From contig JANFAH010000007.1 in the NCBI GenBank assembly GCA_024663395.1, positions 1,674,001-1,738,000 of the forward strand: a stretch of 64,000 nucleotides of DNA. The letters run 5' to 3'. The translations under genes were made by a program, and so were the position numbers. This DNA is from Pisolithus tinctorius. Lineage: Eukaryota > Basidiomycota > Agaricomycetes > Boletales > Pisolithaceae. The notes under the pieces are model-generated. The model was not told the DNA's origin. It saw only the letters and a program-made list of their open reading frames with translations, and did not search any database. Below, one piece after another: positions 4,637 through 47,942 of the stretch. Position 1 is the stretch's first letter, and every line of letters starts with the position of its first letter.

Positions 4637-4639
4637 GGG

Positions 4640-24071: not shown

Positions 24072-24776
24072 CAGAGCCAACCCAGGCTCAAAAAGTAAAG
24101 AGAAAAGAAAGAGATGAGGAAAGAAGAAAGGAAAAAAGACAGTTGTGCAAAGGTTAGGCTTTGCAAACTAATACTTTGAGGGTTAGGCCTCAAAGTCCAA
24201 ACACAGAGAAGGGGTGTTGAACCCAATCCTTTAATCGGAGAGTTGAGTCTCCAGAGGGAACATCCCCTCACATTTGCGACCTATCCTCATCCTTGAATAG
24301 GTCATCAGTCATTTTGCCCTCCTCGGGCTCAGAGTCTTTAGCAGGGGGATTTCCCCTGACAGTGGATGCTCCCCCATGAGGACAGTGGGGGAGGTCATAG
24401 ATGAACACTGCAGAGGCCAACATGGAGACAATCTGCTGATTGTCAGCCCATAAGGGTGTGTGACCCAGAGGGACCTGGTTGATGGTGCAACCAATGGCCT
24501 GAGCCTGATGCTCATACCACTCCCTCAATCCAACATCACTTGGGGGGCAAGGTTTAGTGAGAGCCTTCTTCAGGGGCTCGATTTTTGCCATAACCTGAGG
24601 GTTATTCTCCCCTCCATTGGCAATGATGCCATTGACATACTCTCGACCAGCATGTCAAGCCCATTGTAGCATGTCATCAGTGTCATATGCACTGACCCCA
24701 TTAGCAGTGAGATATGCTGTGATCAAGGCCCTGTCAGCTGAGGTGGTGAACTCACCATCCCAGGGATGTGATGCGC

Positions 24777-28985: not shown

Positions 28986-31892
28986 CTATGTGGCTACTAC
29001 ATGTTCTCGTGTATCTTGTGCCTTGCAAGGCAACTGGCATACATTCTGCATGCCTTGAAGTTTGAGGTACCTGTCTAGGGCCTCGAGCTTCTTGCAGTGG
29101 GATGTCGGTTCCCATGTAGAGTCTCCCAGATTCCACTTAACAAGGAATTCTACCTTGTTTCCAGACCACTGGTGGGTGAGTACCTCGTCCACTATCCATT
29201 CATCATTGTCAGTCGTACTGACATCATAGAAGGCATGTGCATCACATCATGGAAACAGTAAGTCATTGTTTGGCTCATACTTGTGCAGAAGCCCAACATG
29301 AAATGTTGGGTGTATGTGTCTCACTCTTAGCTGCTCTGGCAGCTTGAGTGTATATGTATCGCTCATGTTTTCACAGCATAGAACCTTCATCAGCCCGATG
29401 AATCTTGGCATGAGCTTACAAGCTTGTCCTTTGGGCATGGTCAGGTTCTTCATGGAGAGATACACCAGGTCTCCAACTCAAAGGTGAGTTCCTTTTGCTT
29501 GTTTCTTGTTGGCATGGTATGTCTGCACCACCCTACTCTCAATTATGGCATCATGTGCCATCTCTAAATTTTCCAGTGCTTGTCAGACAAATGTCCTTAC
29601 TCCTGGGGATGACATAGTTGTCCCTTTCTCGATGTGTTGCATCATTATGGGCATATGTCAGTAGTTTAGTTCAAATGGGGCGAACCCCATAGAACTGTTG
29701 ATGCTCGAGTTTATTGCAAACTCGACCATTGGCAGCTTCAACACCCAGTCCTTCTGGTCCGGATGGACCATCAACTGTAGCATCTGTGCTACATTGCGTA
29801 TGGCTTGTTTGGACACGCTGTCCATCTGTGGGTGAAATGCAGTTGACATTAGGAGCTTCACTCCTAACATTCTGTGTGTCTCATGCCAGAATGTCAACGT
29901 AAATTTTGTGTCTCTGTCTGAGACAATTGTTTCTGGTAGCCCATGTAAGCAGGCTATTTCTTTTATGAATATCCATGTGAGTTCCAAAGCTCGCACCATC
30001 ATCTTCACCAGTATCAGGTGTATCATGGACATCAGACGGCATAGGACTACCCACAGGTAGTCGTATCCTTCACTTGGTGGGAATGGTCCCACAAAGTCCA
30101 TTGCTATCAACCCCCACAGTCATCTTGGCACAGGTAGGCTGTGCAGTAGTCCTGGAGGCTGCTGATTGTTGGCCTTCATTGCCTGACATATGGGGCAGGT
30201 TCTGCAAAACCTGTCCACTTCTCAACCAATGTGGGACACTACCTCTGGGTAGTGTGCAAATAGGGGAAAGCTGTAGGGAAAATCCCTAGGCTTGACCCAA
30301 GGGGTGCTGAGTAGGAAGGAGATGTAGAATGCGATGGTAGAGTCAGTCAAAGAGTCAAATGTGGGTCATGGAATTTAATTCCACAGAGTCGAAGGTAGGG
30401 ATAGACTTGCTTTTGAAATTCTGGACGATGATCTTGCACCAATGAAGTAACTCTGAGATGAATTAAGTGCGCAGGAGAGGAAAATGAGTACTAGCAGAAC
30501 AAGGACACAAAGACAGTAGACACAGTAGATGCAGTAGACGCAAAGACACAGATACACAGTGGACACAGAGGACGCAAAGACTCTTTGAACTCTTTAGACT
30601 CACACAAGACACAGAATGTGGGTCCTAAAAAGATGATTCTCACTTCATCACTGAGGCAGAATTATATAGTACATGGATAGTAAGGTACTGATCGGAGAAA
30701 TATGGGGCAGGTGAAGCAAAACTCCAAAAAATAAAGGGGGCGATGTGTCAGACATCAAAGCCATACAGCAATGTGTGAAAACAAACTGTAAGGTAGTAAC
30801 TGAGAAAGACAACAGGAAAGACAGGTATCTTCCAACAGGACGAGTGTACACTGTACCATAGAGTGGAATGTGAAGGGTAGAGGCCATAGGTAGAAAGGGG
30901 TTCTTGCATTGTGGAGAAAGGTTCACAGGAAAGGAATGAGAGTGGTAACCGGAGTTCTTACTGATGATCTGCATGGTTTCCCAGCTATGTGGCAAGGTGA
31001 GGGTTGAAGTGGCACGACTGCAGAATTCCAGATAGATGTATGTCAGGTTGATGTTGACATGGAATTTCAGGACAATGACTGGTGTGTGTTATTGATGGAC
31101 AGGGGAGCTCTGAAGGTTTGACAGGTGAGGCAGCGCACAAGGCAGATGGAATAATTCCAAAGATGACAGATGTGGATGGTAATGGCAGAATTTCAGTGTT
31201 GGCATCCCTATTTTGGCCTCAGGGAGTATACTACTCCCTACACCAAGCTTTGGCCACCAGTACCACCTGCAGATATAATCCGCCATTCTCTGGGATCCAA
31301 AATGTCCTGGTGTCCTGTGCACCTGGTCTATGACCCATGCAATTATGTCATCATTTTTGTACTTTGTGTGAGGAAGGCACAACACTTCCTCTCCACCACA
31401 AGTTTTCATGTAAAGCAGACTGTCTCTTTCCTCAAATTGAGGGTGATGTGACAGTTGTGCTAGTATCTTCACAAGCATAGGCTCGCTCTTGTATCCCTTA
31501 TGGATGGTGTCCAGGAATTCTGGGGTGTCTCTGTAGGTTATTGGTGAGGTTCATGAGGCCTCAGCAGATTCGAATATCGATGGATCCTCTTCTGCAATTG
31601 TGAGAGGAGTGTCCGCATCGTTCCTTTCTGCAGCTGAGGCCATCTCCTGAGCCTCCAGGATGTGGTTTTCCTGTTTTTCCTTTAGCTGGTTACTCTTACA
31701 AAGAGTCCCTTCCTGCTCTTCCATCACTGATAGTCTCAGCTCTTGCCATCTGTCCTGAGGGAGATCATCTCCCTCTGGGTCCAGGCATATGTCAGGATTT
31801 GCCCAGTTGATGTTCTCATTGGAGATGTTGTCTCCTCCTTCCTCCTTGTAGTAATGGGATAGGCAATCCAGTCTCAGGTTTTGTGGATTCAC
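28986..31892 (-). pseudogene. pol: Element E pol: linker, integrase, chromodomain
   Basis: Minus-strand remains of a second chromovirus. A post-RNase H linker (CLSHYYKEEGGD, CLDPEGDDLP) lies at 31551-31880. The H2C2 finger begins HRTPGHFGSQRMADYICRW near 31290 and, after a B-family LTR insertion, ends C-R-T-C-P-I-C near 30200. The integrase core has IAMDFVGPFPPSEG (first Asp) and SDRDTKF (second Asp), but the Glu block reads MDSVSKQAIRN, so the third acidic residue appears lost. The chromodomain (VEFLVKWNLGDSTWEP) is at 28986-29192. A TGA near 31551 sits between frames that continue. RT is absent; at about 31885 the sequence switches to element D3. Confidence 0.8.
30272..31242 (-). repeat. 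B-family LTR inserted in E integrase
   Basis: This 971-bp copy is on the minus strand, starting TGTAGGGAGTAG and ending TTCCCTACA, so both ends carry TGTAGGG-like inverted termini. It splits the H2C2 finger of the E integrase (WWPKLG on one side, the CxxC part on the other). Flanks AAAGC and CCAAGCT suggest a 5-bp duplication, but alignment is ambiguous by a base or two. Similar to 12991-13932 with clear CpG loss. Confidence 0.75.
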
Positions 31893-31934
31893 TGGGGCAC
31901 AGCCACTATCCCCCTCTTTGGGGTAGACATCCCA

Positions 31935-32880
31935 TCATCTAGTTAGGGCATCAGGCCTAGCCCCAAGCTTACTGGGTCTGAACCTAATGACCATGTTGAA
32001 CTGAGACAGGAATTCTGACCAGTGAGCTTGGTGGCAGGTGAGTACTTTAGAGGTAGAGAAGTACTCAAGGTTCTTGTGGTCAGTGACAACATCAACCAGT
32101 GAGGCTGAGCCCTCAAGGTAGTGGCACCAGGTCCAGAATGCTTCAAAAATTGCAAGCAATTCCTTATCATGAGTCTTGTAGTTCAACTCTGGGGTGGACA
32201 GAGTCCAGGAGTAGAAGGTGACCAGATGAATCTGGCCATCACCACAGGTGATAGATAGAATACTGGTGATGACATGGTCCAAAGCATTGGTCTTGACAGT
32301 GATGGGGACCCTGGGGATGAAATGAGTTAAGACTGGCACAGTTGTGAAGGCAGCCTTGAGGTTATTGAATGACCAGTGGCACTCCTTGGAGAAGTTCCAA
32401 GGGGTGCCTTTGTGAGTAAGCCGAGTCAGTGGTATGACAATGTCTGAGTAGTTGAAAATAAAATGGCAGTAAAAGTTGGTGGAGCCAAGGAAAGATTGAA
32501 TGTCTTTAACCTTGTGAGGCTCAGGCCAATCACAGATGGTCTGGACCTTTTCCTTTGACATGGTGAGGCTGGCAGGGGAGAGGTGGAAGCCAAGGTACTT
32601 GACCAAGTCCAAGTGGAACTCACATTTCTCTGGCTTTGCATAGAGGCCATGAAGCCGAAGCTGGTGGAGCACCTCTTGGACATGCTGCTTATGGGACTCC
32701 TTATCTCCAGAGTAGATCAAAATGTCATCAAGGTAGACAACCATGCATGTGTCCAGCATATCCATGAAGATAGTGTTGACAAAGTGCTGGAAAGCAGCCA
32801 GGGCATTGGTGAGGCTGAAGGGCATCACTAACCACTCGTAGGAACTATACCAAGTCTGGAAGGTGGTCTTCCATTCATCA
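31935..32880 (-). pseudogene. pol: Element D3: RT to RNase H fragment
   Basis: A 297-codon frame (31935-32828) is highly similar to the same part of D1 and D2. It has MPFSLTNALAAFQHFV, the YLDD box (VVYLDDILIYSGD), the thumb, and RNase H with VKTNALDHVITSIL, where the catalytic ETDASD of other copies is degraded to KTNALD. It ends at the same TGA as D1 and D2. Upstream it is cut at 32885 by a B-family LTR. Downstream, after about ten codons of the D linker (VNPQNLRLD), it changes to element E sequence. Confidence 0.82.
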
Positions 32881-32885
32881 CCTGG

Positions 32886-33879
32886 TGTGGGACATGACTT
32901 CTGGGAAGCATGTGACTAGAGGAAGGGTGAAGGGAGAATTCCCTAGGACCATCCCAAGGGGTGCTGTGTGGAAGGAGAAGTTGAGAAAGGAACTAGAAGG
33001 TGGTGGGGGAATTTGAGCAAGAGCCACAGAATTTAATTCCAGACAGATGTAGACATGCAAGGAACAGCAAGGTGGGTATACAAAATTCTGAGAGGCTGCT
33101 ATGCACCAAGAAGAGTGAATTTGAAGCAAAAGGGATATGGGATAAGGTGTGCAGGACTAGAGGACACAGGAGACATGAAGACCACTGGGGACACTGAAGA
33201 TGCTGTAGACTCTATATAGGCACTTAGACTCTGGAAACTCTTGAACTCACAGAACACACACAGATAGCAACTCCAAAGGTGGGTGGTATATTTCCAACAT
33301 CATGGCGGAATTATATAGTACAGGGAAAGTAGGTATGAGTCAGAGTAAGGTGGGGCAGAAAAACCAAAAGACTGGAAAATAAAGGAAAGGATGTCAGACA
33401 TCAGCAAAATACAGATGCATGTGAAATAGTCCAGTGGGTAGTAGACAAGAGTAAGGACAGGACAATGGTAAGGGGTATCTTCCAACAGAATGAGAGTAAG
33501 TGTACAAGTGGGAGGTGGAGCTGAGCAGCACAGGAGGGCAGAGTGTAGTGTACTGGCACAAAGTCCAGCTTGTGGAATTTAGGGCAATGGGGGAAACTGG
33601 AGTTTTTTTAGAGGTAAGTGGCACAGATGACTGGTGACATGGCTGAGTGGTGGCACAGCTACTGAATTCCAGATGACTCTGCATGAATGCAGAATTTCCA
33701 GATCAGTGTTTTGATGACTGAGTGACATGCTGAAGGTTGGTAGAAACTCTGAAGACAGGGGTTGGGAGGAAACACAAGGACACAAGTGGGAAAAATTCCA
33801 AAACAGGTTTGTCATAGAGGCCTGTGGAATTTAGTGACAGATTCCTGTTCCAGCCTCAGGGAGTATATGGCTCCCTACA
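32886..33879 (-). repeat. B-family LTR copy, about 1 kb
   Basis: Read on the minus strand it starts TGTAGGGAGCCATATACTCC and ends ATGTCCCACA, aligning along its length with 12991-13932. One side abuts D3 RT codons; the other abuts unrelated sequence. The flanks CCTGG and CCTCC do not give a convincing duplication, so it may be the 3' LTR of a lost element rather than a solo LTR. Confidence 0.7.
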
Positions 33880-34790
33880 CCTCCCAGGGACTTCGAATGC
33901 TGACTGTCCTTGGTCAGACCAAACTGAGACATGACAGAGACAAGCACAGAATATTGGCAGATGTTACATAACAATGATGGCACATGGTCAGAATTCTGCC
34001 TCATGCAGATGCATTGTACAAGATGGCCCTGTGGAATTTAAACACACTCAGAAGGTGTCTCACCACTCATCAAACCTCCACTCTGCAGCTACACCCACAT
34101 CCACTACCCAAGCCCATACACAACCTATGCCATGCAGGCCTACTTGATCCATGACACACAACTGGTTTGCAGCATGAGGGACCAGGCCATCACCTTGCTG
34201 TCAGCAGCATTAAGGCATGTTAGGGTGCTAATCGACACAGTGCCATGGCCCAAGGAGAGCTTAGAGGCAATATATGAGTGGGTGGAGGACTGGGACCAGA
34301 CTTGGGTGAGTGCACTAGAGACCCATGCAACACAATGCACTGACTGATCCCCAGGATGTGATCTACTCATGGTGGAAGTATGTCAACAAGAACAAGATCT
34401 CTGTCCCAAAGGTGCACAACACCAACCTATGCAACATGACTGAGGAATCCACAATACAGCAGAACAAGGTGATCCTGGTGGTGATAGCAATAGTGGATCT
34501 CCAGTGGCCAGAAAGGCAACACAGATTCAACATTGACAATATTTTTGAGGACTACTAGGAGTGGGTAGAGGAGAGAATGCAGTTGGAGGCCAAGAGACTG
34601 GCCAAGGCACCATCCATGCACACCCAGGGCCAAGCAGCAAGAGGTGAGGGCCAAGAACATGCACCAGAAGACACTGAAGGGCATCCATCAAGAGGAGCTG
34701 CATGCTCAACAGGGGAGGGCTCTGGTAGTGCAAGCAAGGGAAAAGGGAAGCAGAAGGTGCATCCTATGTCCTTGACAACTCCAAGCACAC
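33880..34790 (+). pseudogene. Unknown ORF interrupted by C-family LTR
   Basis: Plus-strand frames at 34132-34347, 34325-34558 and 34577-34790 appear to be parts of one coding region after a frame change. Segments include TVPWPKESLEAIYEWVEDWD, SWWKYVNKNKISVPKVHN, IVDLQWPERQHRFNIDNIF and a Glu/Ala/Gln-rich tail (KRLAKAPSMHTQGQAARGEG). A TAG at 34556-34558 interrupts it. The C LTR starting at 34791 truncates the region. No family recognised. The first 150 bases hold no coding signal. Confidence 0.4.
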
Positions 34791-36629
34791 TGTCACACAC
34801 CAAAGGTGTTGTGGACATGGTTACAGCTGACTCTGCCTAACTCGTCAACGAGTTGTGCACAATGCCCAAGCATGCAGATGAAGACTAAAGGCCTCATGTG
34901 TAGAAAGACTGTCAGACATTAACAGTCATCCTTCACACAAGAACAAGTCGTCAGTGCTAAAGAGAAAAGAGGAAGTGAGTTAAGTGCATGTTAAAGGTTT
35001 TTAGTGCCCGTGTACGGCATTCCGGTTTTCGTCATATCTCCACCATTTCCAAAGATATCGACTCTGTTCCCACACTCGCTTAAAGTGCTCAGCCCCACGA
35101 TTCTTTCTTCCAAATTTGGAGAGGATCCTCGCACCCTGTGTGTTTCTACAGCACTCCATCCATCAGATGCTCATTTTGCTAAGTCCATCAATCATGGCCA
35201 CCTCTTTGTCAATCATCTCACTTGTCTCATTTGCCAGAGACAGTGGCTACATATATCTGCCAGGCATTCCCACCAGCTTCTGTCCTGAAGCCCCCTGGTT
35301 CATCCCATCATTGTCAGCCCTGTCTCATCCCATGCAGCTTGGTCAGCGAGTTCTCCTTGTCAGTATGACTTCCAGAAGGATGTTCTTTGGTCGCCTCAGG
35401 TCTGTCACTCAGTTAGAAAGGTCTTATGTGGTCGTTTCAGTCTCCCCGGTTGATGAAGCATATGGATTGTTCCTCCCTGCTCCCTGCACTGTCTTTGTTC
35501 CAGTCTTGTCCATCATTCTTCCCACATTGCGACAGCTGCAGTATAATCTACTGTCCTCCAGCCTCCCTGATCGCATTCATGATGAGTATGACATGCATCT
35601 TGCCTTCTTACTGCAAGATCCAGCAGAAGACGTCCCCCCTTCTCCTCCTCCTCCGTCAGAGCCCCATTCATGAAGTTTTTGTTAACTTCACTGAGAGGAT
35701 GGAAGGGTGGGAGACACGATTGTGTATGCTCTCATTGCCCCACAGACCCCCAATGCCCTAGCCCCCTTTGACGCCTGACTCATGCCCTTCAGTTCTGGAA
35801 TTAATACTTCCCTATCTGGAAACACCATCCATCTGTCATACCATCTTTGGATCTAGAGATGTCTCTGCCAAGATCTAACTTGCATTGCCACCCCCTAATG
35901 TGATATCAGTGCACTTACTCAGTTTCTGATTCTATTTGACTCGTTTTGTGGTATTTTGACTATCCTTGACTCGTTCATTGCCAATACTTACCAATCCTCT
36001 TTGCTTGCTTACTTTCCATTTCTTGCTTACTCATCATGATTACTCAGTCCTTACTCATTACTTACCAAGTGTTTGTGCCTTGTTTGTCACAAGCAGTGCT
36101 CCCCCCACAGTATATAAACCCCCATGTACTTAGCTACCAGGAAGCAATCAGAAGCAGTCCAGCAGTCAGTCCAGTGCCTATCTCGTTGTCGACAGTTGAG
36201 GCTCCACGAAGGGGTCTACCTGTCATCATTCATATACTTGGTAGTTGAGGCTCATTCGGAAGAGTCTATCTGCCTCCATCATTCATCTGAAGCTTCCTCT
36301 TAGTCAGCAGTCTTAGTCATCCCTCCACTCCTGTGTAACTCGTCAATGACTTGTGCCAGGAGCACATTTTATTGAAGTCCATTATTCCAAGAAGTCCTTT
36401 CGGCTGAACACCTTCACTCTGTTCAGCATCCCCTCCTCAGTCATCATCCATTCATCTACTCCTGCGTAACTCGTCGTCGACTTGCGCTAGGAGCACCCTA
36501 CCATTGAAGTTTCCCCCTCTTAGGTTTCTGCACTCCAGGTTCTGCGGAGGCACACCACCACTCGCTTTACATTTGTCTTTTGTGTTGGTTTTGGTTGGTT
36601 TTCACCACCTTTCCACACTTTGACTCACA
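34791..36629 (+). repeat. C-family LTR next to element C pol
   Basis: This 1.84-kb copy starts TGTCACACACC and ends TTTGACTCACA. Flanks ACAC (34787-34790) and ACGC (36630-36633) mirror the one-mismatch 4-bp flanks of the copy at 24777. To the right lies the element C accessory gene and, further on, minus-strand integrase, so I read this as the 3' LTR of element C. A strong TATA box, AGTATATAAACCCCC near 36108, points right, toward the accessory gene and away from pol sense. It encodes the same 185-codon ORF as its sister. Confidence 0.78.
35116..35673 (+). CDS. Second copy of C-LTR ORF, unknown protein
   Basis: Same length (185 codons) and blocks as 25102-25659: VLLVSMTSRRMFFGRLRSVT, VVVSVSPVDEAYGLFL, LPDRIHDEYDMHLAFLL, DPAEDVPPSPPPPSEP. 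Most differences between the copies are transitions, many at CpG or TpG/CpA sites. Both carry the same shortened C-terminus, so the change predates their separation. The intact frame in two CpG-eroded copies could reflect either selection or limited age. Product and role unknown. Confidence 0.45.
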   Translation: MERILAPCVFLQHSIHQMLILLSPSIMATSLSIISLVSFARDSGYIYLPGIPTSFCPEAPWFIPSLSALSHPMQLGQRVLLVSMTSRRMFFGRLRSVTQLERSYVVVSVSPVDEAYGLFLPAPCTVFVPVLSIILPTLRQLQYNLLSSSLPDRIHDEYDMHLAFLLQDPAEDVPPSPPPPSEPHS

Positions 36630-36637
36630 ACGCATGC

Positions 36638-37470
36638 TGACTTCAATGAAAATTCTGCAGGCCACCAGCAAGGAGGACAAGCTGGCTGATGATGTCAATG
36701 ATGATGAGGGCGATGGTGAACCAGGTCCATCCACAAAGGGACCTCACACAGCTGGGGACAATGAGCCCTGTGAGACGTGTGCCCAGGCAAACCTTGCATG
36801 TGTTGGGGAGCCAGAGGTGTCCTGCAAGTGGTGCAGGCAGGCAAAATGCAAGTGCTTGTGCTCTCGAGGTGTAGGGAGAAAGGTGAGTACTGCACAGGTG
36901 AAATTCTGCAAGGGAACGAGTTGACACCACCTTCAGTGAAAGAACTCTGGTACTGTTGGGGAGGCAGGGCCATCCCACAAATGAGTCAAATCATTTATGA
37001 CCTCAAAGCCAGCCCCAGCAGAATCTGCGACTGAACCCACCAAGAAGCTTACTCTGAAAATTCTGGCTCGAAAACAGCAGCCTGATCTGACCCCCACATG
37101 CTTGCCTTCGCCAGATCCAGCCCCTTCACTTCGCAATCCTTCACCAACACCCTGTCTCTTTTTCTGTGGGGCCACTCCAATTCCTGGACCTTCATTCAAG
37201 CCCTCACCAGTCCCTGTCGATGATCCTCAAGCATCACTCCATCAGCTGCAGAAATTCTGGAGGTCAAATACCCATGCAAGCAGTTGACAGCGAACATCAT
37301 TGAGTGTCTGCAAGTGCTCAAGGTGAGGGCTGAGGATGAGGAATTTGAGCTGGAGCAGGTCTACTGGCTGCTGGAGATGTTGGCAAGGTGGGTAACACAT
37401 CAGATCGAGACTGCACAGGCCAGATGGGAGGAGTTGTGAAGGTTGAAAGATGATCTCCAGGACCTGTAAA
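36638..37470 (+). CDS. Element C antisense gene, Zn2Cys6-like Cys cluster
   Basis: This plus-strand gene lies between the 1.84-kb LTR and the minus-strand pol end. Exon 1 starts at ATG 36635 or 36644 (MKILQATSKEDKLADD), is acidic, and contains C-E-T-C-AQANLA-C-VGEPEVS-C-K-W-C-RQAK-C (C-x2-C-x6-C-x7-C-x2-C-x4-C). A good donor, AAG|GTGAGT near 36881, follows. Coding resumes near 37015 with ESATEPTKKLTLKILARKQQ and a Pro/Ser tract. After another junction the C-terminus is helical (CKQLTANIIECLQVLKV, ELEQVYWLLEMLARWVT), with a TGA where CGA fits, then RLKDDLQDL and TAA near 37468. A DNA-binding, dimerising role is suggested by analogy with fungal Zn2Cys6 proteins; the last spacing is shorter than usual. 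Exon joins are uncertain. Confidence 0.55.
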
Positions 37471-37732
37471 TAGTGTACTAGAGTCTGCAGAATTTTTTTT
37501 TTTTTGTACTCATATGCTCTGAATTTGTAAGAGGTTTTCGTGTGTCAGTATTAGTACTACAGTAAGGGAAGGAAAGGTAAGACTTCTGAAGGAAGAAGTG
37601 TTGCAGAAATTATATATATATATATATAGATTCTTTCATGTGAGCAGTGCGGAATTTATATATGAGATGAAACCAGTATTGATAAAAGAAAGAACAGGGA
37701 AAGAAAAGAAAGGAGGTAGAGAGAAGGACAGG
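37471..37732. other. Spacer between opposed genes, with simple repeats
   Basis: It contains a poly-T run near 37493-37505 and a (TA)n tract near 37611-37628, no coding signal. It separates the ends of the accessory gene and the C pol, which converge here. Confidence 0.5.
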
Positions 37733-39034
37733 CTACTCATCTGACTTGTCCAAAGGGATGCCAGCAAGCATAGGGTCTGGGAACACATCATCTTCAAGAC
37801 AATCCAGGTCTTGTGAGGAAGTGCCAGTCAGCTGGGTGACTTCAATACAAGCATTATTCTGTGGGAAATAGGGGTATAGGCGAAAGGCAGTGAAGCAGAA
37901 TTTTGAGATAGCACCATCTAATTCCACAAGTATGTATGAGCTGCCTTTAGTGTGTCTGACAATGATCATAGGCCCTAGGTAGTGCAGTTTGGTTTTCTGG
38001 TCAAGTTCTAGTTCAATATGGGAATTCTGAACAAGGACAAGCGACCCTGGTTCAAAGTTAAAGTCTTTGATAGAATGTGCAAAATGATTGATGAAATCCT
38101 TGGCTGAGGCAAAGCATGATTTTAGGACCAGATCATGGATGCAAGCAAGGTCCTTGGGGCATTTCTGGAGTTGGCAAGCATGGTGAGCAATGAGGTCTGT
38201 GGTCAAGTAAAATTCCACCTCAAAAGGGGCTAAAAATGTTGCTTTGACCAGATCAAAAGGGAGTCTGGGTTCAACACTGTGAGCCATATAGAATGGAGAA
38301 AACCCAGTTGCCTTGTGGACCATAACCCTCTCAGCCCAAAGTACCACAGGGGCAACTTCTGACCACCTCAATGCTTCCCCACCACAACTTTTTACCATCA
38401 CCTCTCTTACATCAAAATGCCACCGTTGGACAACTCCATTAGCCTGCAAGTTATAAGGGGAGATGTGTATGTGACGAATTCTGAAGGTCTTGGAGAGCCA
38501 GTCAAGAGTGAGGACATATGGTCCCCCATTATCTGTGACAATCTCCACAACAGCACCCCAATGGCACAGAATCTGTTTGAAGATGAACTTTCCAATGGAC
38601 TTGCCTGTCTCTGCACAAAGCATAGCCCATTTGGGGTAACTGGTGAGTGAACAGCAGGCTTGGGTAATGTAGCGAAATCCATTCAACTTTGGCATTAAGA
38701 ACATGTCCATATAAGCCTTGTAAAATAGGGGTTTGGGAATGGTGATGACTGGTGGAATATGAATGCGATCCAAATGGTGGATCTGGCACTCATGGCATGA
38801 TTTAACATACCAATGGACATCCTGCTCTAGCATGGGCCACCAAAAGCAAGTCAGCAAATGCATGTGGGTTGAGAAGATACCCTTGTGTCCTAGATCATCA
38901 TGGGCCTGGTGGAGAAATCCAAGGTATTTGTGTGGGGGTATGTCAAGTTTGGGATGTCTGGGTTGAGGCCAGACCAGAGACTGAAGCAGGTGTGAGGCCG
39001 AGGGGTCAGGGTCAGGGGGGGGGGTCAAAGACAC
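37733..39034 (-). pseudogene. pol: Element C integrase
   Basis: A 433-codon open frame. The H2C2 finger is at residues 40-82 (HQAHDDLGHKG to CHECQ). The core has the first acidic residue in AYMDMFLMPK and the second in VTDNGG. The third block reads ANGVVQRWHFDVREV, with Gln where the relic at 23290-23900 has Glu (NGVVERRH), so the catalytic triad is broken. A C-terminal domain follows (GSLVLVQNSHIE, KLHYLGPMIIV) and a tail ends IPLDKSDE; no chromodomain is seen. Upstream RT is missing because the D2 LTR abuts at about 39045. Long but probably inactive. Confidence 0.82.
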
Positions 39035-39044
39035 AGATGATTGG

Positions 39045-39813
39045 ACTGATTGGACTTAGTGACTGAGGATGCAGCACTATTCCCTTGTGTGGGTCTCAGT
39101 CCAAGTCCAAGGCCAAGACAGGGTTATCAGAGTTAACTTTGTTGATTTCAGACTGAGGGGTACAGGCCAAGTATCTACGGGTTTATATACCAGAAGTAAC
39201 TATAGTATGGAGACCAGTAATGCCAGTCTCACAAAGATTGCTAAGGTGATTGGTAAGACAGGTATTAGTAAGATATGACTAAGACAACAGAGACTGGGAC
39301 AGAGTGGACCAGGGACATGACCGGTGTGAGGAAATATAAAAGTGTGGATTGAGGCTGGGGTAGAGGAATCTGAGAGGGAGAGAGTAAGACCAAGGGGCTC
39401 CTATAGCCTGAGCAAAGGAAGGATGGGATAGGGAACTGTCTAGGGCTGTCTGGGGCAGTCTTTCTCTTGTTCTCGTCTTTGGGGGTAACTTGTCTATTGG
39501 TAAAAACTTACAGTACAAAGAAACTGTAAGTAAGTGCTGACTAAGCACACAAAAAGCGAACTATGGTACTCAAGTATAGTACCCACAACAGTAAGTAAAG
39601 AAACCATAAAACAAATAAAATAGAAATTAATACCCAATCCCATAGTAAGGAGATCTCTCTCCTTACACTGGGCAGGACTTAACTGAAGTGACAGACACTG
39701 CAAAGCAGTGTTCACCATGCTAGACCAACTGGAGATATGGGATTGGTGAGGCCGAGGCTGGACTGAGTGAGTGCGAGGCCAAGTCCGGCCAGGGTCAAGA
39801 CACGACTATGACA
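39045..39813 (-). repeat. Element D2 3' LTR
   Basis: On the minus strand it begins TGTCATAGTCGTG directly after a polypurine tract. A TATA box (GGTATATAAACCC) is near 39190. The end near 39045 is inferred from where similarity to the D1 LTR (10846-11347) stops after CAGTCACTAAGTCCAA. It abuts element C integrase codons. It keeps more CpG than the D1 LTR. Confidence 0.65.
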
Positions 39814-39829
39814 GTATCCCCCTCTTAGG
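39814..39829 (-). promoter_or_regulatory. Element D2 polypurine tract
   Basis: The minus strand reads CTAAGAGGGGGATAC immediately before the LTR start TGTCATAG. It closely resembles the Gypsy-A tract (AAGGAGGGGATAG). It fixes the sense of D2 as minus and proves that the plus-strand gene at 39951-41018 lies inside the element. Confidence 0.8.
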
Positions 39830-39950
39830 GGTTGAACCCATGAGACCCCTCCAAGAGTGGCAGGCTGAGTCTGAAATTTGGCTGAGTTCAAAAAATTGAT
39901 ACTTGTGGCCCACTAAGCCCTTTGTGTCTTTCTTTCTCATCCTAACCATC

Positions 39951-41018
39951 ATGTCTGAATCAAGGCCAATTGTCACTGCCAATAACAACAACAAGGGCTG
40001 TGCCATCATTGATTGGACCCAAGTGCCCGATGACGAAATTAGGTACAACACTGAGGACAAGGAAGAGGTGATGAAGGCCAACTTGAAGGAGAGGAAAAGG
40101 CACAAGGCAGCTGAGCAAGCCCAGCAGGAGGAGCAGGCTTGGCTTGAGGCCAAGAGGGTGGCAAAAGAGCAAGCCAAGGCCAAGAGGGCTGAGAGGGAGA
40201 AGGCTGAGAGGATAGTGTGGGAGGCCAAGGAGCAAAGGGTGCATGAGGAGGAGGAGAGACACAAGGCCAAGGAGGAAAGGGAGGCCAAGCAAAGATGCAA
40301 GGCCAAGGCTGGGAAGGGTGATGAAGCCGGGGCTGGTGGTAGCAAGGCCGGCAAAGTAAAAAAGGTAGTTATGGACCCTGGGTGAGTCCCCCCCATCTTG
40401 TGCATACCTCTCTTGACATTCCTTTTTAGCTGCATGTGCTGTGCCTGGGCTCAAGTCATCTGTGAATTCCTCATGGATGGTAACAAAAAACAGGTTGCCT
40501 GTGTCCACTGCAACCAGTCAAAGGGCAAATGCCAGTGGCCTGGAGACAGGAAGGATGCCAAGGCCAGTCCCAAGGCCATCAAAGGCAAGAAAAGGAAGGT
40601 CGATGAGGACAATGCTGAAGCTGGGCCCAGTATGCAGAAATGGGTGAGAACAAGTGTGAGGCCAACTGAGGTCTTGGACCTCGATGAATTTGAGGCTGGT
40701 GGGAGCAGGGCGAAGGAGGCCAGTGCAGCCAGATACTTGGGCTTGGAGAACAAGCTCGAGTGACTGATAGAGGCCATGGGGCTGATTGCCAACAACTTGG
40801 CCAGCCTTTTTGAGCTTCATGAAACTGTGGTCGAGAACTCAGGCCAGATTGCTGATGCCCTTGAGTTGTTACTTGACCAATCATATGGCTTTAGGATGGC
40901 AGTGTCCCCTTCAGACTCCAACAAGCTATGCAAGGAAGCAGAGTGGCTGAAGACCCATGGTGAGGATGAAGAGGAGGAATCTGAGGGGGAGGATGAGAGT
41001 ATGGCTGAGGCTGAGTAG
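39951..41018 (+). CDS. Element D2 antisense gene, Zn2Cys6-like and coiled coil
   Basis: A two-exon plus-strand gene inside D2, antisense to it, between pol end (41205) and PPT (39814). Exon 1 (39951-40380, MSESRPIVTANNNNKG) is largely a long charged helix (EEQAWLEAKRVAKEQAKAKR). A clear intron, GTGAGT to TTTTTAG (40381-40429), joins it in frame to exon 2, which opens with C-M-C-C-AWAQVI-C-EFLMDGNKKQVA-C-V-H-C-NQSKG-C-equivalent KC-QWPG (C-x2-C-x6-C-x11-C-x2-C-x5-C). A basic patch (KGKKRKVDED) and a helical region follow. A TGA at 40761-40763 interrupts LENKLE-x-LIEAMGLIANN, where CGA (Arg) fits; the frame goes on to an acidic tail (EDEEEESEGEDE). Likely a nuclear DNA-binding protein by analogy; function is inferred only. 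Confidence 0.65.
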
Positions 41019-41204
41019 ACTCATAGTGTAGTGTTTTTGTTGTTTCCTCTGCAAATGTCATGTGTCTGGTGTCTGGTGTCCAGTTTCAGTCTTGTATAGT
41101 AAGTGAGAGCAAACAAGAAAAGAAAACAAGGTAAGTAAGGGATCAAAAGGAACTATATACCAACAGAGAACAGAACAGAAACTGAGGCCAGTTGAAGCCG
41201 GTTC

Positions 41205-44200
41205 TCATTGGGAAGGGCTGGGTTTATTGGGATAGCAGGAATGGAACTCTTGTACAAGTTCAGAGGCATTGTCTAGTTCAGTGGCAAGTACCCAAGCAGT
41301 TTCTTCATTGGTCCCCTCATAGCCAGTCCACTGGACTAAGTATTGAAGCCAACACTGGCAACACCAGTCGACCTTAGAGTCAAGGATCTCTGCTACCTTG
41401 AACTCTAGTTCACTGTCAGCTTCAACTGGTGGAGGTGGTGGTTGAGTCTGGTTCAGGATGGTATTAGGGGTGGCCAGCTCAAGTTGGGAGACATGGAAGA
41501 CCAGGTGGATTGTATGCATTGAGTCTGGCAGGCACAGTGTGAATGAATGAGTACTGGCCTGAGCTATGACCAGGTACGGCCCAAGGTTCTTCTCTGAGAG
41601 TTTCTTGGAAGGCCAGGTTGACCAGAAGTATTTAGCTTTGACATACACCTGGTCACTGACCTTGAAGTCCAGAGCTGGCATGCATTTAGCATCAGCTGGT
41701 CCTTGATAGCGCCATTAAGCAAGAGTCATCTCCTCATGTAGGTATTGGTGCAGTGAATCCAGGTTGACTGCATAGTCACGAGCCCGAGTGGATGTAAGAT
41801 CACACTCCGGGTACACCAAGATACTAGGATGGTAGCCCTTATTAGCGAAGAAGGGTGAAACACCAGTAGTAGTGCTAGGGGCATTGTTGTAAGTGAACTT
41901 GGCCAAAGGTAGTAGGTCAGCCCAGTTGTCCTGCTGATAGTTGCAGTACACTCGGAGGTATTGTTCTAGAGTCTGGTTGGTCCTTTTGGTCTGGCCATCA
42001 CCTTCAGGGTGGTAGCCCGAGGTGAAATGTAAGTACATATCTAAGGCCTTACTGAGTGACTGGAAGAAGTGAGACATGAACTCCGAGCCTTGGTCTGAGG
42101 TTACATGGGCTGGCACTCCATGCTCAGAAAAGACATGGAGTAGGAACAGTTTGGTGAGTTCTGGGGCTGTGATAGTGTCATGGGTGGGGATGAATATGGC
42201 CTGCTTGGAAAGCTGGTCAACTACAATGAGGATGGCCATGAAGCCAGTTGAGGCTGGGAGTTGCTCGATGAAATCCATAGATATGGAATTCCACGGTTTC
42301 TCTGGCACCAGGAGTTGCTTAAGGAGGCCATAAGGCCAATGGCAGGGAACCTTAGCCCAGGCACAGGCTGTGCAAGACTGGACATAGTCTTTGACAAATG
42401 TCCTGAGGCCAGGCCAGGTATACTCATGCCAGATGAGTTCTAAGGTACAGTTTTGGCCAAAGTGGCTGGACAGGGGGTGGTCATGCTTGAGGTGCAAGAC
42501 CCTGAGGTGGAGATCATTTGAGTCCGGCACATAGATCCTTCCATCAAGACGAAGGAAGCCAGTGTCATCTACTGACCACCAGGGATCAGACATGTCAGAC
42601 AGACGGATTTGTGAGACTGGGTCATCCAGCAGTGTGGTCAGGATATCATTGTGTAACTTTTTGACATCCATTAAGGCAACTGCTCATAGGACCAGGTACT
42701 TGAGGTATGTGGTGTGAAGGGAGACCACTAACTGCTCCTGGGTGAAAACCAGTCTCAGGTTCTGCAGGTTCACTCAGGCATAGCCGCTATCCCCCTCTTT
42801 GGGGTAGACATCCCATCATCTAGTTAGGGTGTCGGGCTTAGCCCCAAGCTTACTGGGTCTGAATCTGATGATCATGTTGAATTGAGACAGGAATTCTGAC
42901 CAGTGAGCTTGGTGGCGGGTGAGTACTTTAGAGGTAGAGAAGTACTCAAGATTCTTGTGGTCAGTAACAACATTGACCAGTGAGGCTGAGCCCTCAAGGT
43001 AGTGGCACCAGGTCCAGAATGCTTCAAAGATTGCAAGCAATTCCTTATCATGGGTGTCATAATTCAACTCCAGGGCCATCAGAGTCCAGGAGTAGAAGGC
43101 GACTGGATGGATCTGGCCATCGCCACAGGTAATAGAGAGGATGCCAGCAATGGCATAGTCCAATGCATCGGTCTCAATGGTGATGGGGACCCCGGGGATG
43201 AAGTGAGTTAAAACTGGCGTGGTAGTGAAGGCAGCCTTGAGGTTGTTGAATGAATGGTGGCATTCCTCAGAGAAGTTCCAAGGAGCCCCCTTGTGGGTAA
43301 GCCAAGTCAACAGTATGATGATGTCCGAATAGTTAAAGACAAACTGGCAGTAGAAGTTAGCAAAGCTGAGGAAGGACTGTATGTCCTTGACCTTGCGAGG
43401 CTCAGGCCAGTCGCAGATGGTCTGGACCTTTTCCTTTGACATCATGAGGCCAGCGGGGGAAAGGTGGAATCTGAGGTATTCGACTGAGTCCAAGTGGAAC
43501 TCACATTTCTCCAGCTTCGCATAAAGGCTGTGAAGCCAAAGCTGGCAAAGTACCTCTCGGACATGCTGCTTGTGAGACTCCTTATCTCCAGAGTAGATCA
43601 AGATGTCATCTAGGTAGACAACTATGCAGACATCCAGCATATCCACAAAGATAGTGTTGACAAAGCGCTGGAAAGTGGCTGGGGCATTGGTGAGGCCAAA
43701 AGGCATCACTAACCACTCATAGGATCCATACCGAGTCTGGAAGGCGGTCCTCCATTCATCGCCCAGGGCAATCCAGATGAGATGGTAAGCATGCCAGAGA
43801 TCAATTTTAGTATAGATCTTGGCTCGGCTTGGTGAATCTAATAGGTCAGAGATGAGTGGGAGTGGGTATTGGTCCTTCTTAGTGATTTTGTTGAGGCCGC
43901 GAAAGTCTACACAGAGCCAGAGGGAGCTGTCCTTCTTTTTGAAAAAGAGGACTGGTGCAGCATAAGGGGAGGAGGTAGGTCAAATGAATCCAGTAGTAAG
44001 GTTTTCATCAATGAAAGTCTGGAGGGCTTGGAGCTCAACTGGGGACAGCGAGTAGATGGTGCTGAGAGGCAGGGTTGTTCCTTCTTCAAGCTCTATTTTC
44101 AGGTCGTACTCCCAGTGTGGTGGGAGTGCCAAGGCCTTGGCCTTACTGAATACATCAGTGAAGTCATGGTACTCTTCCAGGACATTGGGTAAGGCCAGAG

Positions 44201-45735
44201 GAGGTGAAGCTGAGGCCAATCAGGCTTGAGCTGAACCCAAGGGGCAGAGCTGAAGTTGGAACTGGACAGACCCTTCTAGTTTGCAGGCATGCACAAAAGT
44301 GGCTGCATTGATTAGAGAAACAAGAGGGGCCTTCAGGGGGGTGCGAGCTGGGGAGTCGGAGACTGGTACAGATGGTGCACGGCTGGGTTGGTCACTAGGA
44401 CTGGGGTCAGGAAGGCTGGTGGAGACCAGGCTTACAGGGGGTGTTGATGGGGTTGGCATTCCTTGTGTAGGAGTCTGGAATGTTAGACTGCCCAATACCC
44501 AATCAATCAACGGATTGTAGTGGGTGAGCCAGTCATGTCCGAGAACTATCTTACACTCAGAATCCAATGGGGCTAAAAACAGGGTTACTGGTGTGACATT
44601 GCTGGACGCAAAGCAGATACTGGCATCTACTGCCTGGGTTATAGTGAAGGTGGACATTCCATTGAAGAGCCAGAGTTGGATTGGGGAAACCGAGTATGGG
44701 GTAAATGAGTATTGATTAACAAATTGATTATCTATAAAACAATGGTGGAACTGGAGTCCACTAAAGTACGAAGCCAAGGTATTTCTGGGTTTTCTAATGT
44801 GACATACTGTCATGACCATGACACCAGTGTAAGCCCCTAACACCTACTCCGCCCTCTTCCGACATGTTCCTGCACTTCTCCGCCCTCCTCCGACGTGTTC
44901 CCACGCTCCTCCGACCCTCCCGACACATCTCCACACCTCTCCAAGTTCCCCTGTCCATGTTCTGACCAACTCCGCTCAACTCTGCCCTAAGGTTGGTCAC
45001 ATGGGCTGTCGGACTTGTGGCCCTGCATCCTAGATAGGGTTCCGCCCTCGTGTCGGTTTTCTCCATTCTTCCGCTTCTTCGGTATTTACCCTCTCTTCCT
45101 CGTTGTAGTAGTTTCCTTGTCTCAGTTAAGGTCCCTGTTGTCCCTACTCTCTATCCCTTGTGTCGGAAGGGCTCTAACCCACTATACACTTATTGGTTTA
45201 CATTCCGTACTGCACCGCCCTTGACCTACATTGTATATAAGGCCACGTAGTACTCCGATGTAATCAGTATGAATATCGAATAAAGTCCCCACCTTCGACT
45301 CCCTCTCAGTCCCCTCCGGAGTTTCGTCTCCACTTCTTCTGAGTCTGCTCCACCTCTGAAATACGAGGGCTGAGCTCGCGCAAGGGGGCAGTGCACTAGC
45401 TGAACCCAACGCCCTCTCATCCGACCTCCGACCTCTGACCTCCGGCTCCGACTCCGACCTCAGTCTCCGAAACTTCCCTTCATACCCCTCCGCTCACTGT
45501 TCGTCGAATATCTTGCCACCCAGTGGTCGGATTCACTTCGGACTTTGACCGCTGTACTCCGCAGCCCAACCCGCTCCAACTCCGCCCTAAGAAGGAGCCA
45601 GGGGTGTTGTCTGACTTTGACACATATGGGGTTAAAGAGTTCAGACTGGAAAGAGCGGATGTGTTGAGATGAGCCTCCAAGTTTGCACAACCGGAGTCAA
45701 TGCAGCTCCCAGATTGTGTGGAGTCCCAGGAGCTG
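41205..45735 (-). pseudogene. pol: Element D2 pol: protease to chromodomain
   Basis: Minus-strand pol of D2, split by a G-family LTR (44808-45622). In order: pol N-terminus (LSSLNSLTPYV at about 45640), a protease region with a one-base deletion in the DSSST box (about 44740), then RT with YLDD (43709 inward), RNase H (IETDALDYAIAGIL), linker, and integrase 42671-41715 with H2C2 and an intact triad (ISMDFIEQ, SDQGSEFM, GQTKRTN has Lys where Glu is expected, so the third residue is lost). A C-terminal domain and chromodomain (FKVAEILDSKVDW, YLVQWTGY) end at 41205. TGA codons at 44220, 43980 and 42816 separate in-frame continuations; one TAA (41715) does not fit CpG decay. Clearly inactive. Confidence 0.85.
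44808..45622 (+). repeat. G-family solo LTR inside D2 pol
   Basis: An 815-bp block starts TGTCATGACC and ends GACTTTGACA, flanked by CATAC (44803-44807) and CATAT (45623-45627), one mismatch. D2 pol codons continue on both sides. It is CpG-rich and near-identical in reverse orientation to 46660-47300. Its first 150 bases hold imperfect tandem copies of a CTCCGCCCTCCTCCGAC-like unit. It is younger than the pol it interrupts. The strand shown is only the TG-first reading; LTR sense is not determined. Confidence 0.85.
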
Positions 45736-46665
45736 CTACCTATTTTTTGTCTCAGGGGTAGAACCTGAGCCTGAGGCCAGTGTGGCCTCAGTGGTAGCCA
45801 CAGCGCGAGCTTTGGCCTTTCTGGCTTTCTTAGGGCATTTGTCAGCGAAGTGACCAGGGCCTCCACAGAACATGCAGAGGTTGCCCTCTATGTGACACTT
45901 GCATTCCTCAGGGGTAAGCTTTCCATCTTTGCTGAGTTTGCTAGGCTCAGGCTTGGATGAATTGCTACTATTATTGTTGCCTGGCTTTGATGAAGCTGGC
46001 TTGGGGGAAGACCTGGTGTTGTTGTTGCTGCCAGGTTTGGATTTATCTTGACCAGTCTTGGGCTGGTTGTTGTTGCCAGAACCGCCAGACTTATTGTTGC
46101 TGGAGTTGGAGCCCTGGTGTTTACTCACCCACTGGACTTCTTCCTTGTGCTCCCAATAGCATGCATCTATCTCTTGGGCAGGGTGGCAGAGCTCATGAAG
46201 TGTCCAGGGTTTGCCAACCTGACAGACCTCATCCTTGATTTGGTCTGGGAGTCTGGAGTAGAAGTGATGGCACAACACACCATCTCTGTAGCCTCGGACT
46301 TGTGAAGCAAGCCAATTAAAATCGACTACGTATTTGTTGATGCACTGACTTTCCTTCATATGTAGATGGTCAAGCTGACTCTCGGCATCAGCAACCAGGT
46401 TGTGGGGGCTGAAGGTGGTTTGCAACTCTAAGACAAACTCCCTACAGGAGTCCATCCAGAGAGGCTGGTCATTGGGGTTGTTGAGTCTGAGCAAGTCCAG
46501 CTCAAACCATTCTAATGCCATACCTTTGAGGTAGGACTGGGTGAAGATGACCTTGGCATGGTTGGTCCTAAAAGCCTGGGGGCAGTCTTGGAAATTAAGT
46601 TTGCACTGGATGAAGAAAGCGTGAAGTTTCTTTGGGTCAGTACCGTCAAAGGTGTCAGGTGTCAA
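45736..46665 (-). pseudogene. gag: Element D2 gag, N-terminus missing
   Basis: A 309-codon frame carrying the Gag core: TFDGTDPKKLHAFFIQ, FNWLASQVRGYRDG, LPDQIKDEVCQVGKPW, a Ser/Asn/Gly/Lys linker and the zinc knuckle CMFCGGPGHFADKC (C-x2-C-x4-H-x4-C). D1 shows that about 200 residues should precede TFDGTDP; here they are replaced by a G-family LTR starting at 46660, so the apparent ATG is not the real start. Unlike D1, no stop interrupts the core, so D2 is the better reference for the family. Confidence 0.85.
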
Positions 46666-47300
46666 AGTCGGACAACACCCCTGGCTCCTTCTTAGGGCGG
46701 AGTTGGAGCGGGTTGGGCTGCGGAGTACAGCGGTCGAAGTCCGAAGCGAATCCGACCACTGGGTGGCGAGATATTCGACGAACAGTGAGCGGAGGGGTAT
46801 GAAGGGAAGTTTCAGAGGCTGAGGTTGGAGTCGGAGCTGGAGGTCAGAGGTTGGAGGTCGGATGAGAGGGCATTGGGTTCAGCTAGTGCACTGCCCCCTT
46901 GCGTGAGCTCAGCCCTCATATTTCAGAGGTGGAGCAGACTCAGAGGAAGTGGAGACGAAACTCCGGAGGGGACTGAGAGGGAGTCGAAGGTGGGGACTTT
47001 ATTCGATATTCATACTGATTACATCGGAGTACTACGTGGCCTTATATACAATGTAGGTCAAGGGTGGTGCAGTATGGAATGTAAACCAATAAGTGTATAG
47101 TGGGTTAGAGTCCTTCCGACACAAGGGATAGGGGGTAGGGATGATGGGGACCTTAACTGAGACAAAGAAACTACTACAACGAGGAAGAGAGGGTAAATAC
47201 CAAAGGAGCGGAAGAACAGAGAAAACCGACATGAGGGTGGAACCCTATCTAGAATGCAGGGCCACAAGTCCAACAGCCCACGTGACCAACCTTAGGGCGG
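46660..47300 (-). repeat. G-family LTR, truncated
   Basis: Plus reading starts TGTCAAAGTCGGACAAC, the reverse of the copy at 44808-45622, and matches it up to CCTTAGGGCGG at 47300. About 175 bp of the LTR are then missing and a different sequence (TGTAGGGAAC) begins. CpG-rich and young. It cuts the D2 gag. Confidence 0.85.
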
Positions 47301-47481
47301 TGTAGGGAACGAGTTCGAGTTCCCTAGGAGAATCTGTCTTGGTCAGGAGTTTAGGGGTGGAAGGACTTGTTTTATTTCTTGCCTTTGTTTTTGTGTTTGT
47401 ACCCCTGGACTTGGTGACGAGCAGCCGCGTCGCTGACTAAGCACGTGTGCTGTGTTCGCGCGAGTTCAGTTTACCATAACA
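47301..47481 (+). repeat. Candidate short LTR of element F
   Basis: The 181-bp segment starts TGTAGGGAACGAG, has an early dyad (GGGAACnnnnnnnGTTCCC-like) and ends CCATAACA. It precedes the Gag-like frame by about 460 bp. No second copy exists in the window and no tRNA-complementary site is obvious, so the assignment rests on TG/CA ends and position only. Confidence 0.35.
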
Positions 47482-47942
47482 ACCAATCCATGACAGAGGC
47501 CCTCAGTAGTAGGGTGATTTAGTCTCGCATTTCGGCGAGTTTTCGAAGTTAGAATAATTACTTTGGGGAGTACCCAAAGTGCCAGGAGGACTGGCAAGAG
47601 TATTAGACAGACAGAGCTAAGTATCCTTTTTCTAGTTCGCATTTTTTTACCTTTTTACTACACTTCTTTCTCCAGAGAGAACCTCCCTTTTGGGTCGAGC
47701 ACAATATACTCGCCCATTACTGACTATTACCATTATAGGTATATCTATTTTACCTATTCCTACATCTGGAGCCCACCGCGAGGGGGGTTCTGTCCAATTT
47801 GGGGAAAGAAGTCACCGTTTTATCACCGAACGAAGTCTTTGCTGGGTTGAGTTGGACAAGCTAAGTATTCAGAGTCTTGATTCTAGCTACCATCTACTCT
47901 CAGGAATTCAGGAAATTTTCAGAGTTATTTTTCGAGCAGCAA
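47482..47942 (+). other. Leader region upstream of element F gag-like frame
   Basis: CpG-normal sequence between the candidate LTR and ATG 47943. It contains pyrimidine-rich stretches (47625-47672) and no other open gene. The coding frame is open upstream to about 47877 without an ATG, so translation more likely starts at 47943. Confidence 0.4.

Follow-up and report, generated by a model that had tools for sequence, protein, structure and literature searches.

A stretch of 64,000 nucleotides (nt) from the ectomycorrhizal fungus Pisolithus tinctorius (contig JANFAH010000007.1 of assembly GCA_024663395.1, positions 1,674,001 to 1,738,000), hereafter the window, contains two long terminal repeat (LTR) retrotransposons of the gypsy type, which we name C and D2. 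Judged by comparison with further copies in the same genome, the families C and D to which they belong each carry their own protein-coding, intron-containing accessory gene, running antisense to the element after pol and ahead of the 3' LTR, and the comparison establishes the position, strand, splice sites, selection and cysteine pattern of these genes. An earlier note, made from the letters of the window alone, had claimed such a gene for both families, and the claim was borne out in the window and in the copies. Gypsy elements have long been known to possess antisense accessory genes, to which no function is assigned. Here one fungus offers two families with many copies, some of them open, in which selection, a metal-cluster motif and antisense introns come together, and these make the function directly testable by protein-DNA binding and RNA sequencing.

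The antisense gene of element D

D2 is a chromodomain gypsy element, with reverse transcriptase (RT), RNase H, integrase and a C-terminal chromodomain in gypsy order, as is characteristic of chromoviruses. The minus sense attributed to it in the earlier note was confirmed by gag, RT, integrase and chromodomain, all of which are minus-strand frames, and by a purine tract beside the LTR at 38941-39813. Along the minus strand the order is gag, RT/RNase H, integrase, SH3-like domain with chromodomain, antisense gene, leader and 3' LTR. The antisense gene itself spans 39951-41018 on the plus strand and has one intron of 48 nt. The parts of D2 are listed below; dN/dS is the ratio of non-synonymous to synonymous divergence.

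38941-39813, minus strand: 3' LTR with TG..CA ends; the purine tract adjoins it in element sense; insertion at 39325-39666
39814-39950, plus strand: leader between the 3' LTR and the antisense ATG, containing the element's purine tract
39951-40381, plus strand: antisense exon 1, encoding the N-terminus and a charged coiled coil; ATG in 21/21 sequences, codon periodicity, dN/dS 0.17
40382-40429, plus strand: antisense intron, GTGAGT..TTTTTAG; GTGAGT donor and AG acceptor in 21/21 sequences, length 48-52 nt
40430-41018, plus strand: antisense exon 2, with zinc cluster, stretch rich in lysine and arginine (K/R), C-terminal helix, acidic tail and stop
40431-40532, plus strand: six-cysteine cluster, C-x2-C-x6-C-x12-C-x2-C-x6-C
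41205-41714, minus strand: C-terminus of pol, SH3-like domain and chromodomain (Pfam PF24626, PF00385)
41715-42683, minus strand: integrase (Pfam PF17921, PF00665)
42816-43979, minus strand: reverse transcriptase/RNase H (Pfam PF00078, PF17919, PF17917)
45736-46659, minus strand: gag, with Ty3_capsid and zinc-knuckle matches under the curated cut-offs; homologous across copies

Copies of both elements were sought in the same 92.5-Mb P. tinctorius genome from which the window comes. The D sample comprised 20 fetched copies (L017-L036) and the window copy, 21 sequences in all; the antisense proteins of L032 and L033 are identical. Over 208 pairs of these sequences the median dN/dS of the antisense gene in frame was 0.156 (exon 1 0.17, cluster 0.14, middle 0.23, C-terminus 0.10), at a median synonymous divergence (dS) of 0.91. 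Exon 2 read in its shifted plus-strand frames gave 1.05 and 1.44; only these shifts of exon 2 are cited as controls, and three antisense-frame controls amounted to one frame. Differences by codon position were taken from 12 of the 20 copies and the window (13 sequences), and at positions 1, 2 and 3 averaged 0.158, 0.098 and 0.300 per pair in exon 1 and 0.129, 0.083 and 0.312 in exon 2, the interior of the intron differing by 0.326. That the splice sites are kept while the intron interior drifts points to selection on a separate antisense mRNA. Taken together, codon-level selection, splice sites and cysteine pattern support the interpretation of the antisense product as a real protein. Third codon positions in the same D alignment (39951-43979) differ by 0.30-0.31 in the antisense gene and by 0.19-0.205 in integrase and RT; recombination, greater age or a different constraint may possibly account for the faster third positions of the antisense gene.

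For the linkage of gene and element, copies were ranked by pol alone and 40 places were scored. The antisense gene stood at the expected place in 38 of them, 37 being evident from the match lists, compared by eye, and the 38th (L067) on reading its DNA; of the last two places, one lacks the gene and the other runs into the end of a contig. The earlier note had named two outcomes that would contradict it, genes lying mostly outside elements and related elements without the gene, and within this genome neither was found to prevail. A previous count of 37 places, the window included, in all of which the gene was present, was biased by a query that itself held the gene, and the pol-only ranking was used instead. 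In all 20 fetched D copies the integrase adjoins the antisense gene in the same order and relative strand, with an RT match beyond it (in L029 this match is remote and just 70% alike). Nineteen of the 20 have an LTR on the gene side, 13 have one of the same orientation on the far side, and 12 have both. Pairing the best-listed 150 gene matches with 150 integrase matches gave the expected layout for 98 and an odd placement for 3, and no listed integrase lay within 6 kb of the remaining 49, the integrases being the best 150 of 1,933 candidates; the distance between gene and integrase was 1.5-1.9 kb in 95 of the 98 pairs.

Two observations count against the functional reading proposed below. The full-length gene is open in 8 of the 20 fetched copies and broken in the other 12, and the window copy is itself broken by a single in-frame TGA at 40761-40763. 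In addition, one of the pol-ranked places (L066, G000:C2:3868300-3869900) has a well-kept pol, yet the 1.6 kb next to the pol end contain no antisense gene. This copy retains only a short piece of the D LTR; a deletion or an insertion there may be the reason. Among genome matches, the exon 2 part was free of stops in 123 of the best 150 of 554 candidates, a choice that favours well-kept copies, and an integrase stretch of similar length was open in 141 of the best 150 of its own candidates. By impression, several stops in D copies resemble changes of CGA to TGA. Over the 20 D loci (L017-L036) the observed/expected ratio is 0.53 for CpG, 1.19 for TpG and 1.17 for CpA, which fits the usual trace of cytosine methylation decay.

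The leader presumably houses the promoter or 5' untranslated region of the antisense gene. Its blocks differ by 2-14% between D sequences, compared with 30-31% at third codon positions, this low divergence being partly due to the purine tract. The block at 39814-39836, beside the 3' LTR, is near-invariant (2.4% pairwise difference) and combines the purine tract with the inverted repeat CCCCT-CTT-AGGGG; it is a possible candidate for a binding site.

Relative to the other copies, D2 carries insertions at 39325-39666, within the LTR, and at 44807-45622; no other D LTR long enough to be of use was seen in the window. An inverted repeat of 645 nt, 95% complementary, flanks D2 gag (44979-45623 and 46659-47303). 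Since 44807-45622 is missing in most D copies compared, this repeat was probably inserted twice in opposite orientation.

Gene C and its element

D2 sits inside element C, whose pol reaches 38940. The limits given for gene C in the earlier note, 36638-37470, had to be revised: the structure derived from copies extends over 34132-37469 on the plus strand, with four exons and three introns, and the start ATG proposed earlier sits in intron 2. Nor could the 3' LTR of C be kept at about 35.4-36.6 kb, this sequence being the right part of a solo LTR at 34790-36629, whereas LTR-like sequence of the C family ends at about 33916. The features are:

32880-33916, strand not assigned: C-family LTR-like sequence adjoining gene C; inner edge set by eye at ..GGTCA
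34132-34305, plus strand: exon 1
34306-34354, plus strand: intron 1, 49 nt; GT..AG in 10/11 full copies, acceptor altered in one; seen in the window
34355-34756, plus strand: exon 2, 402 nt; in-frame TAG at 34556-34558 in the window copy
34757-36660, plus strand: intron 2; 61 nt in 11/11 full copies, GT..AG in 10/11; split in the window copy by the solo LTR
34790-36629, strand not assigned: solo LTR of 1.84 kb inside intron 2; TG..CA, imperfect target-site repeat ACAC/ACGC
36661-36882, plus strand: exon 3; dN/dS 0.211 over copies
36769-36855, plus strand: zinc cluster within exon 3, C-x2-C-x6-C-x7-C-x2-C-x6-C
36883-36936, plus strand: intron 3, 54 nt; GTGAGT..TTCAG in 14/14 aligned sequences
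36937-37469, plus strand: exon 4, broken; TGA as first codon (36937-36939), more stops, about 100 nt gone near 37238
37733-38940, minus strand: C-terminus of C pol with Integrase_H2C2, cut at 38940 by the D2 insertion

Sixteen further loci made up the C sample (L002-L008 and L037-L045; L037 overlaps L004, and L003 is the same as L002), and 40 of 380 candidate places were scored in the genome. In frame, dN/dS was 0.269 over 55 pairs from 11 of the 14 aligned sequences, the incomplete L043, L004 and window copies being excluded; exon 4 gave 0.330 and the shifted frames 0.76 and 0.85. A comparison of dN/dS across copies, suggested in the earlier note, showed selection in both families (0.156 for D, 0.269 for C). 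Decay counts against gene C as well: it is open over all exons in 1 of 11 full copies and broken in the other 10. On the pol side of the gene, L037 has an integrase and RNase H, and its RT-like frame was without a Pfam match up to E 0.1. The LTR-like sequence at 32880-33916 has its homologue at the upstream end of L006, L007 and L008, and an inverted copy at 12990-13939; in L002 the gene leader is adjoined by the end of the other LTR type.

A loss of 880 bp from the window copy of gene C was ruled out when exons 1 and 2 were found to the left of the solo LTR, which has a direct copy, 93% alike, at 24776-26619. One and the same point of intron 2 is occupied by two different LTRs: in the window by the 1.84-kb LTR, in L004 by an LTR-like block of the C family. 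At this point the uninterrupted L006 has the palindrome GCACATGTGC. The two LTR types at one point, together with the palindrome, suggest a hot spot of insertion.

The six-cysteine cluster and the antisense proteins

A translation of the window in six frames contains the six-cysteine pattern twice and no more, at 36769-36855 and at 40431-40532; when the window was simulated with a first-order Markov model, 0 of 40 runs contained it. All six cysteines stand at the set spacing in 121 of 137 relatives of the D protein (linker 12) and in 29 of 61 relatives of the C protein (linker 7). The canonical spacing of fungal Zn2Cys6 clusters is C-x2-C-x6-C-x(5-12)-C-x2-C-x(6-8)-C, and both D (2-6-12-2-6) and C (2-6-7-2-6) fall inside this range. 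The antisense proteins share with the Gal4-type domain (PF00172) not only the spacing: a basic C-x2-C-x6-C half and a half of P-x-C or P-x-x-C type are recognisable. The earlier note had read the C-x2-C-x6-C and C-x2-C parts correctly, but its linker of 11 and last gap of 4 or 5 do not hold, the actual linkers being 12 and 7 and the gap 6. Names starting with 'Zn(2)-C6 fungal-ty' are attached in UniRef to 30 of the 120 listed D relatives and to 6 of the 61 C relatives, and the cluster is the one part over which the C and D profiles align with one another (probability 72.5%, E 3.3e-5). The spacing thus supports the designation Zn2Cys6-like, whereas the Pfam model does not fit.

The two halves of the cluster seem to be exchanged. 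In PDB matches to Leu3 and Lac9 the alignment was crossed, the second half of the query resembling their first half and the first half of the query their second. Half profiles were built from 12 first and 18 second halves, taken from solved yeast factors (the irregular second half of Hap1 was excluded) and from genes of the P. tinctorius genome with a canonical Zn_clus domain; of 20 such genomic stretches, 7 supplied both halves, another 7 just the second, and 6 were unused (L049 and L065 as near-duplicates of L047, L059 of L052, and L061-L063 as irregular or duplicate). A leave-one-out difference score S favoured the canonical order (S > 0) in 11 of 11 canonical proteins; among the antisense proteins it favoured the reversed order (S < 0) in 29 of 29 from C and 121 of 121 from D, and by this measure their basic half would come second, not first as in Zn2Cys6. 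The fit to the reversed order beat shuffles of the same residues in all eight sequences tested (P 0.0014-0.0185), and the fit to the canonical order in one of eight (P 0.02; the rest 0.08-0.37). On this moderate evidence the halves are likely, though not proven, to stand in reversed order relative to canonical Zn2Cys6. In Gal4-type clusters each half gives one bridging cysteine to a pseudo-symmetric cage, so a swap of halves could keep the metal cage. If the reversal is true, the best-known DNA-binding domain of fungi would occur in these proteins in a rearranged form that the Pfam model misses. Of the Zn2Cys6 DNA-binding domain that the earlier note had proposed, the spacing therefore stands, while a Pfam match was not obtained and the order of halves is apparently reversed.

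A number of results weigh on the other side. The Pfam Zn_clus model (PF00172) had no match in the antisense proteins at E up to 10, and none of the 32 Zn_clus matches in the genome lies within 1 kb of a listed antisense gene (150 from D, 39 from C). With E values of 0.55 and 7.2, the resemblance to Leu3 and Lac9 is weak, and a PDB search with the whole A1 profile returned designed repeats and thanatin only, with no Zn2Cys6 chain. As proteins of one family do not count separately, C and D make only two independent cases of reversal. The score S does not differ significantly from that of shuffles of the same residues (P 0.07-0.33). Finally, an aromatic residue after the third cysteine, which is common in the canonical second half, occurs in 121 of 121 D proteins and in 0 of 29 from C.

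The D protein has about 340 amino acids (aa) and that of gene C, in the open copy, 468 aa. No Pfam domain was matched in either. Structure prediction, another check that the earlier note had suggested, was of little help: in the AlphaFold2 model of a D relative a long helix (37-113) is followed by the cluster, a low-confidence K/R-rich stretch, a second helix (238-286) and an acidic end, but the models are poor, with a mean predicted local distance difference test score of 59.5 for the D relative and 47.3 for the C relative, and are unsuited to fold searches. The acidic tail of D has a median of 17 D/E among the last 40 residues. The motif K[KR]x[KR] is a nuclear signal; 111 of 121 D relatives have it in the 80 aa that come after the cluster, whereas no more than 7 of 29 C proteins have it behind theirs, and the latter figure counts against the regulatory role proposed below. 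Homologues were searched by shared 5-residue words, the main D and C searches scoring a limited number of candidates. D homologues numbered 181 proteins and a search with the D region gave 175; in each case the 120 listed are all from P. tinctorius. The 61 C homologues come from P. tinctorius and P. orientalis. No relative from outside Pisolithus was among the matches listed, which does not imply absence elsewhere, as candidates were chosen by shared words and in the main searches a limited number was scored.

Possible function, known parallels and the rest of the window

We propose, at about even chances, that the element-encoded antisense protein enters the nucleus, binds element DNA and regulates transcription or counters silencing; its transcription, nuclear entry, DNA binding, target and sign of effect are what we infer here. 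The antisense gene would have to be transcribed apart from the gag-pol RNA, most simply by way of an inward-reading promoter located in the conserved leader or in the adjoining 3' LTR. Sense introns of LTR elements tend to be lost once spliced RNA is copied, and antisense introns persist because the sense RNA that is reverse transcribed does not show them as introns. The product would be a protein with a Zn2Cys6-like cluster, to which D adds the coiled coil, the K/R-rich nuclear-signal-like stretch and the acidic tail. Having entered the nucleus, it might bind DNA of the element's LTR or leader and so regulate transcription of the element or counter host silencing, comparable to HBZ of human T-cell leukaemia virus type 1 (HTLV-1), to the role suspected for GENE23 of Grande, or to VANC. 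The trace of cytosine methylation at the D loci makes a VANC-like anti-silencing role attractive, though unproven. A broader conjecture, which we advance tentatively and rather doubt, is that mushroom-forming fungi possess a class of LTR elements with spliced, sequence-specific antisense regulators containing a half-swapped Zn2Cys6, which two or more gypsy families evolved or captured and which oppose silencing by cytosine methylation.

Another role for the protein would be in integration: it would accompany the pre-integration complex, assisting nuclear import or tethering to chosen chromatin, and have no part in transcription. The zinc-cluster motif, the coiled coil, the nuclear-signal-like stretch and the retention of the gene in 38 of 40 pol-ranked D copies would all suit such a factor; since the D integrase already ends in a chromodomain and a separate antisense transcript leaves the protein uncoupled from the particle, we regard it as somewhat unlikely. 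We think it decidedly unlikely that the protein is a nucleic-acid chaperone or RNA-binding protein for element RNA and not a reader of DNA sites. A basic stretch does adjoin the CCC-CCC cluster and no DNA-binding domain was matched in Pfam, but gag already has a zinc-knuckle match (under the curated cut-off), the cysteine spacing is that of Zn2Cys6 and the acidic tail of D recalls activators.

The antisense RNA could itself be the regulator, by double-stranded RNA or interference, with the reading frame incidental, and antisense transcription may indeed regulate some retroelements (PMC7264820). The codon-level constraint in a single frame and the splice sites kept beside a drifting intron interior make this very improbable, and the dN/dS values disfavour non-coding antisense RNA as the sole function. 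Hardly any weight can be given to the view of the gene as a mere hitch-hiker, captured from the host or brought in by a nested insertion: one of the 40 pol copies is without the gene, and the introns exclude entry as sense-strand complementary DNA, but the gene has the same place in 38 of the 40 and is under purifying selection at the median dS given above, and the genome's 32 canonical Zn_clus matches all lie away from the listed antisense genes.

HBZ is a basic leucine zipper protein, and VANDALs are DNA transposons and not LTR elements. VANC of the Arabidopsis VANDAL elements, according to the excerpts available, is element-encoded, sequence-specific and anti-silencing, and is proposed as a parallel only; HBZ of HTLV-1, an antisense-encoded nuclear protein of an LTR element (PMC11963269), is assumed to have an origin independent of the Pisolithus proteins. 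Antisense genes at the position between pol and 3' LTR are known, as far as the accessible parts of the cited papers tell, from plant gypsy elements and from Boty of Botrytis (PMC11963269, PMC8365987, PMC4227169, PMC5987419). In plants they include GENE23 of Grande, a suspected regulator that we cite as a parallel, RIRE2, ORF4 of Retand (TRP28) and PvRetro13 (PMC11963269). These belong to aORF-3R, antisense additional open reading frames (ORFs) of gypsy elements, as in D and C; the D gene likewise lies antisense between pol and the 3' LTR, within the LTRs, in most copies and encodes a conserved protein. The likeness drawn here is one of position, and the word 'zinc' occurs 0 times in the accessible text of PMC11963269. 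Among fungi, the Boty-like gypsy elements of Botrytis cinerea have the additional antisense gene brtn (Zhao et al. 2011; PMC8365987, PMC4227169, PMC7264820); Boty combines gag, pol, chromodomain and an antisense gene, like D.

The position and antisense type are thus already known, and the Zn2Cys6-like content of the gene appears to be new within the open-access literature searched: among the titles and abstract openings listed, none describes an LTR element with an antisense gene of Zn2Cys6-like type. That literature likewise yielded no report of a circular permutation of Zn2Cys6, and the titles and abstract openings listed for Pisolithus none of such an antisense gene; the text of a study of transposable elements (TEs) in Boletales that includes P. 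tinctorius (PMC5689174) is without the words 'antisense' or 'zinc'. In a comparison of Pisolithus species, zinc-finger genes are among the commonest near TEs, as its accessible part states (PMC10066745), and such genes may partly reflect element genes of the kind described here.

Further gypsy sequence in the window includes a minus-strand element (1337-4636 and 5023-6081) with an open pol frame of 1099 aa bearing a chromodomain and a weakly gag-like frame; tblastn with six antisense proteins found no antisense gene beside it (1337-6081). A second D-like element is represented by an RT/RNase H frame at 31935-32915, and 31865-32164 is 92% alike to D2. On the plus strand, stop-to-stop frames of 618 and 347 aa at 47865-49721 and 50031-51074 had no Pfam match at E 0.01, and a direct repeat of 189 nt, 74% alike, is located at 49850 and 50054.

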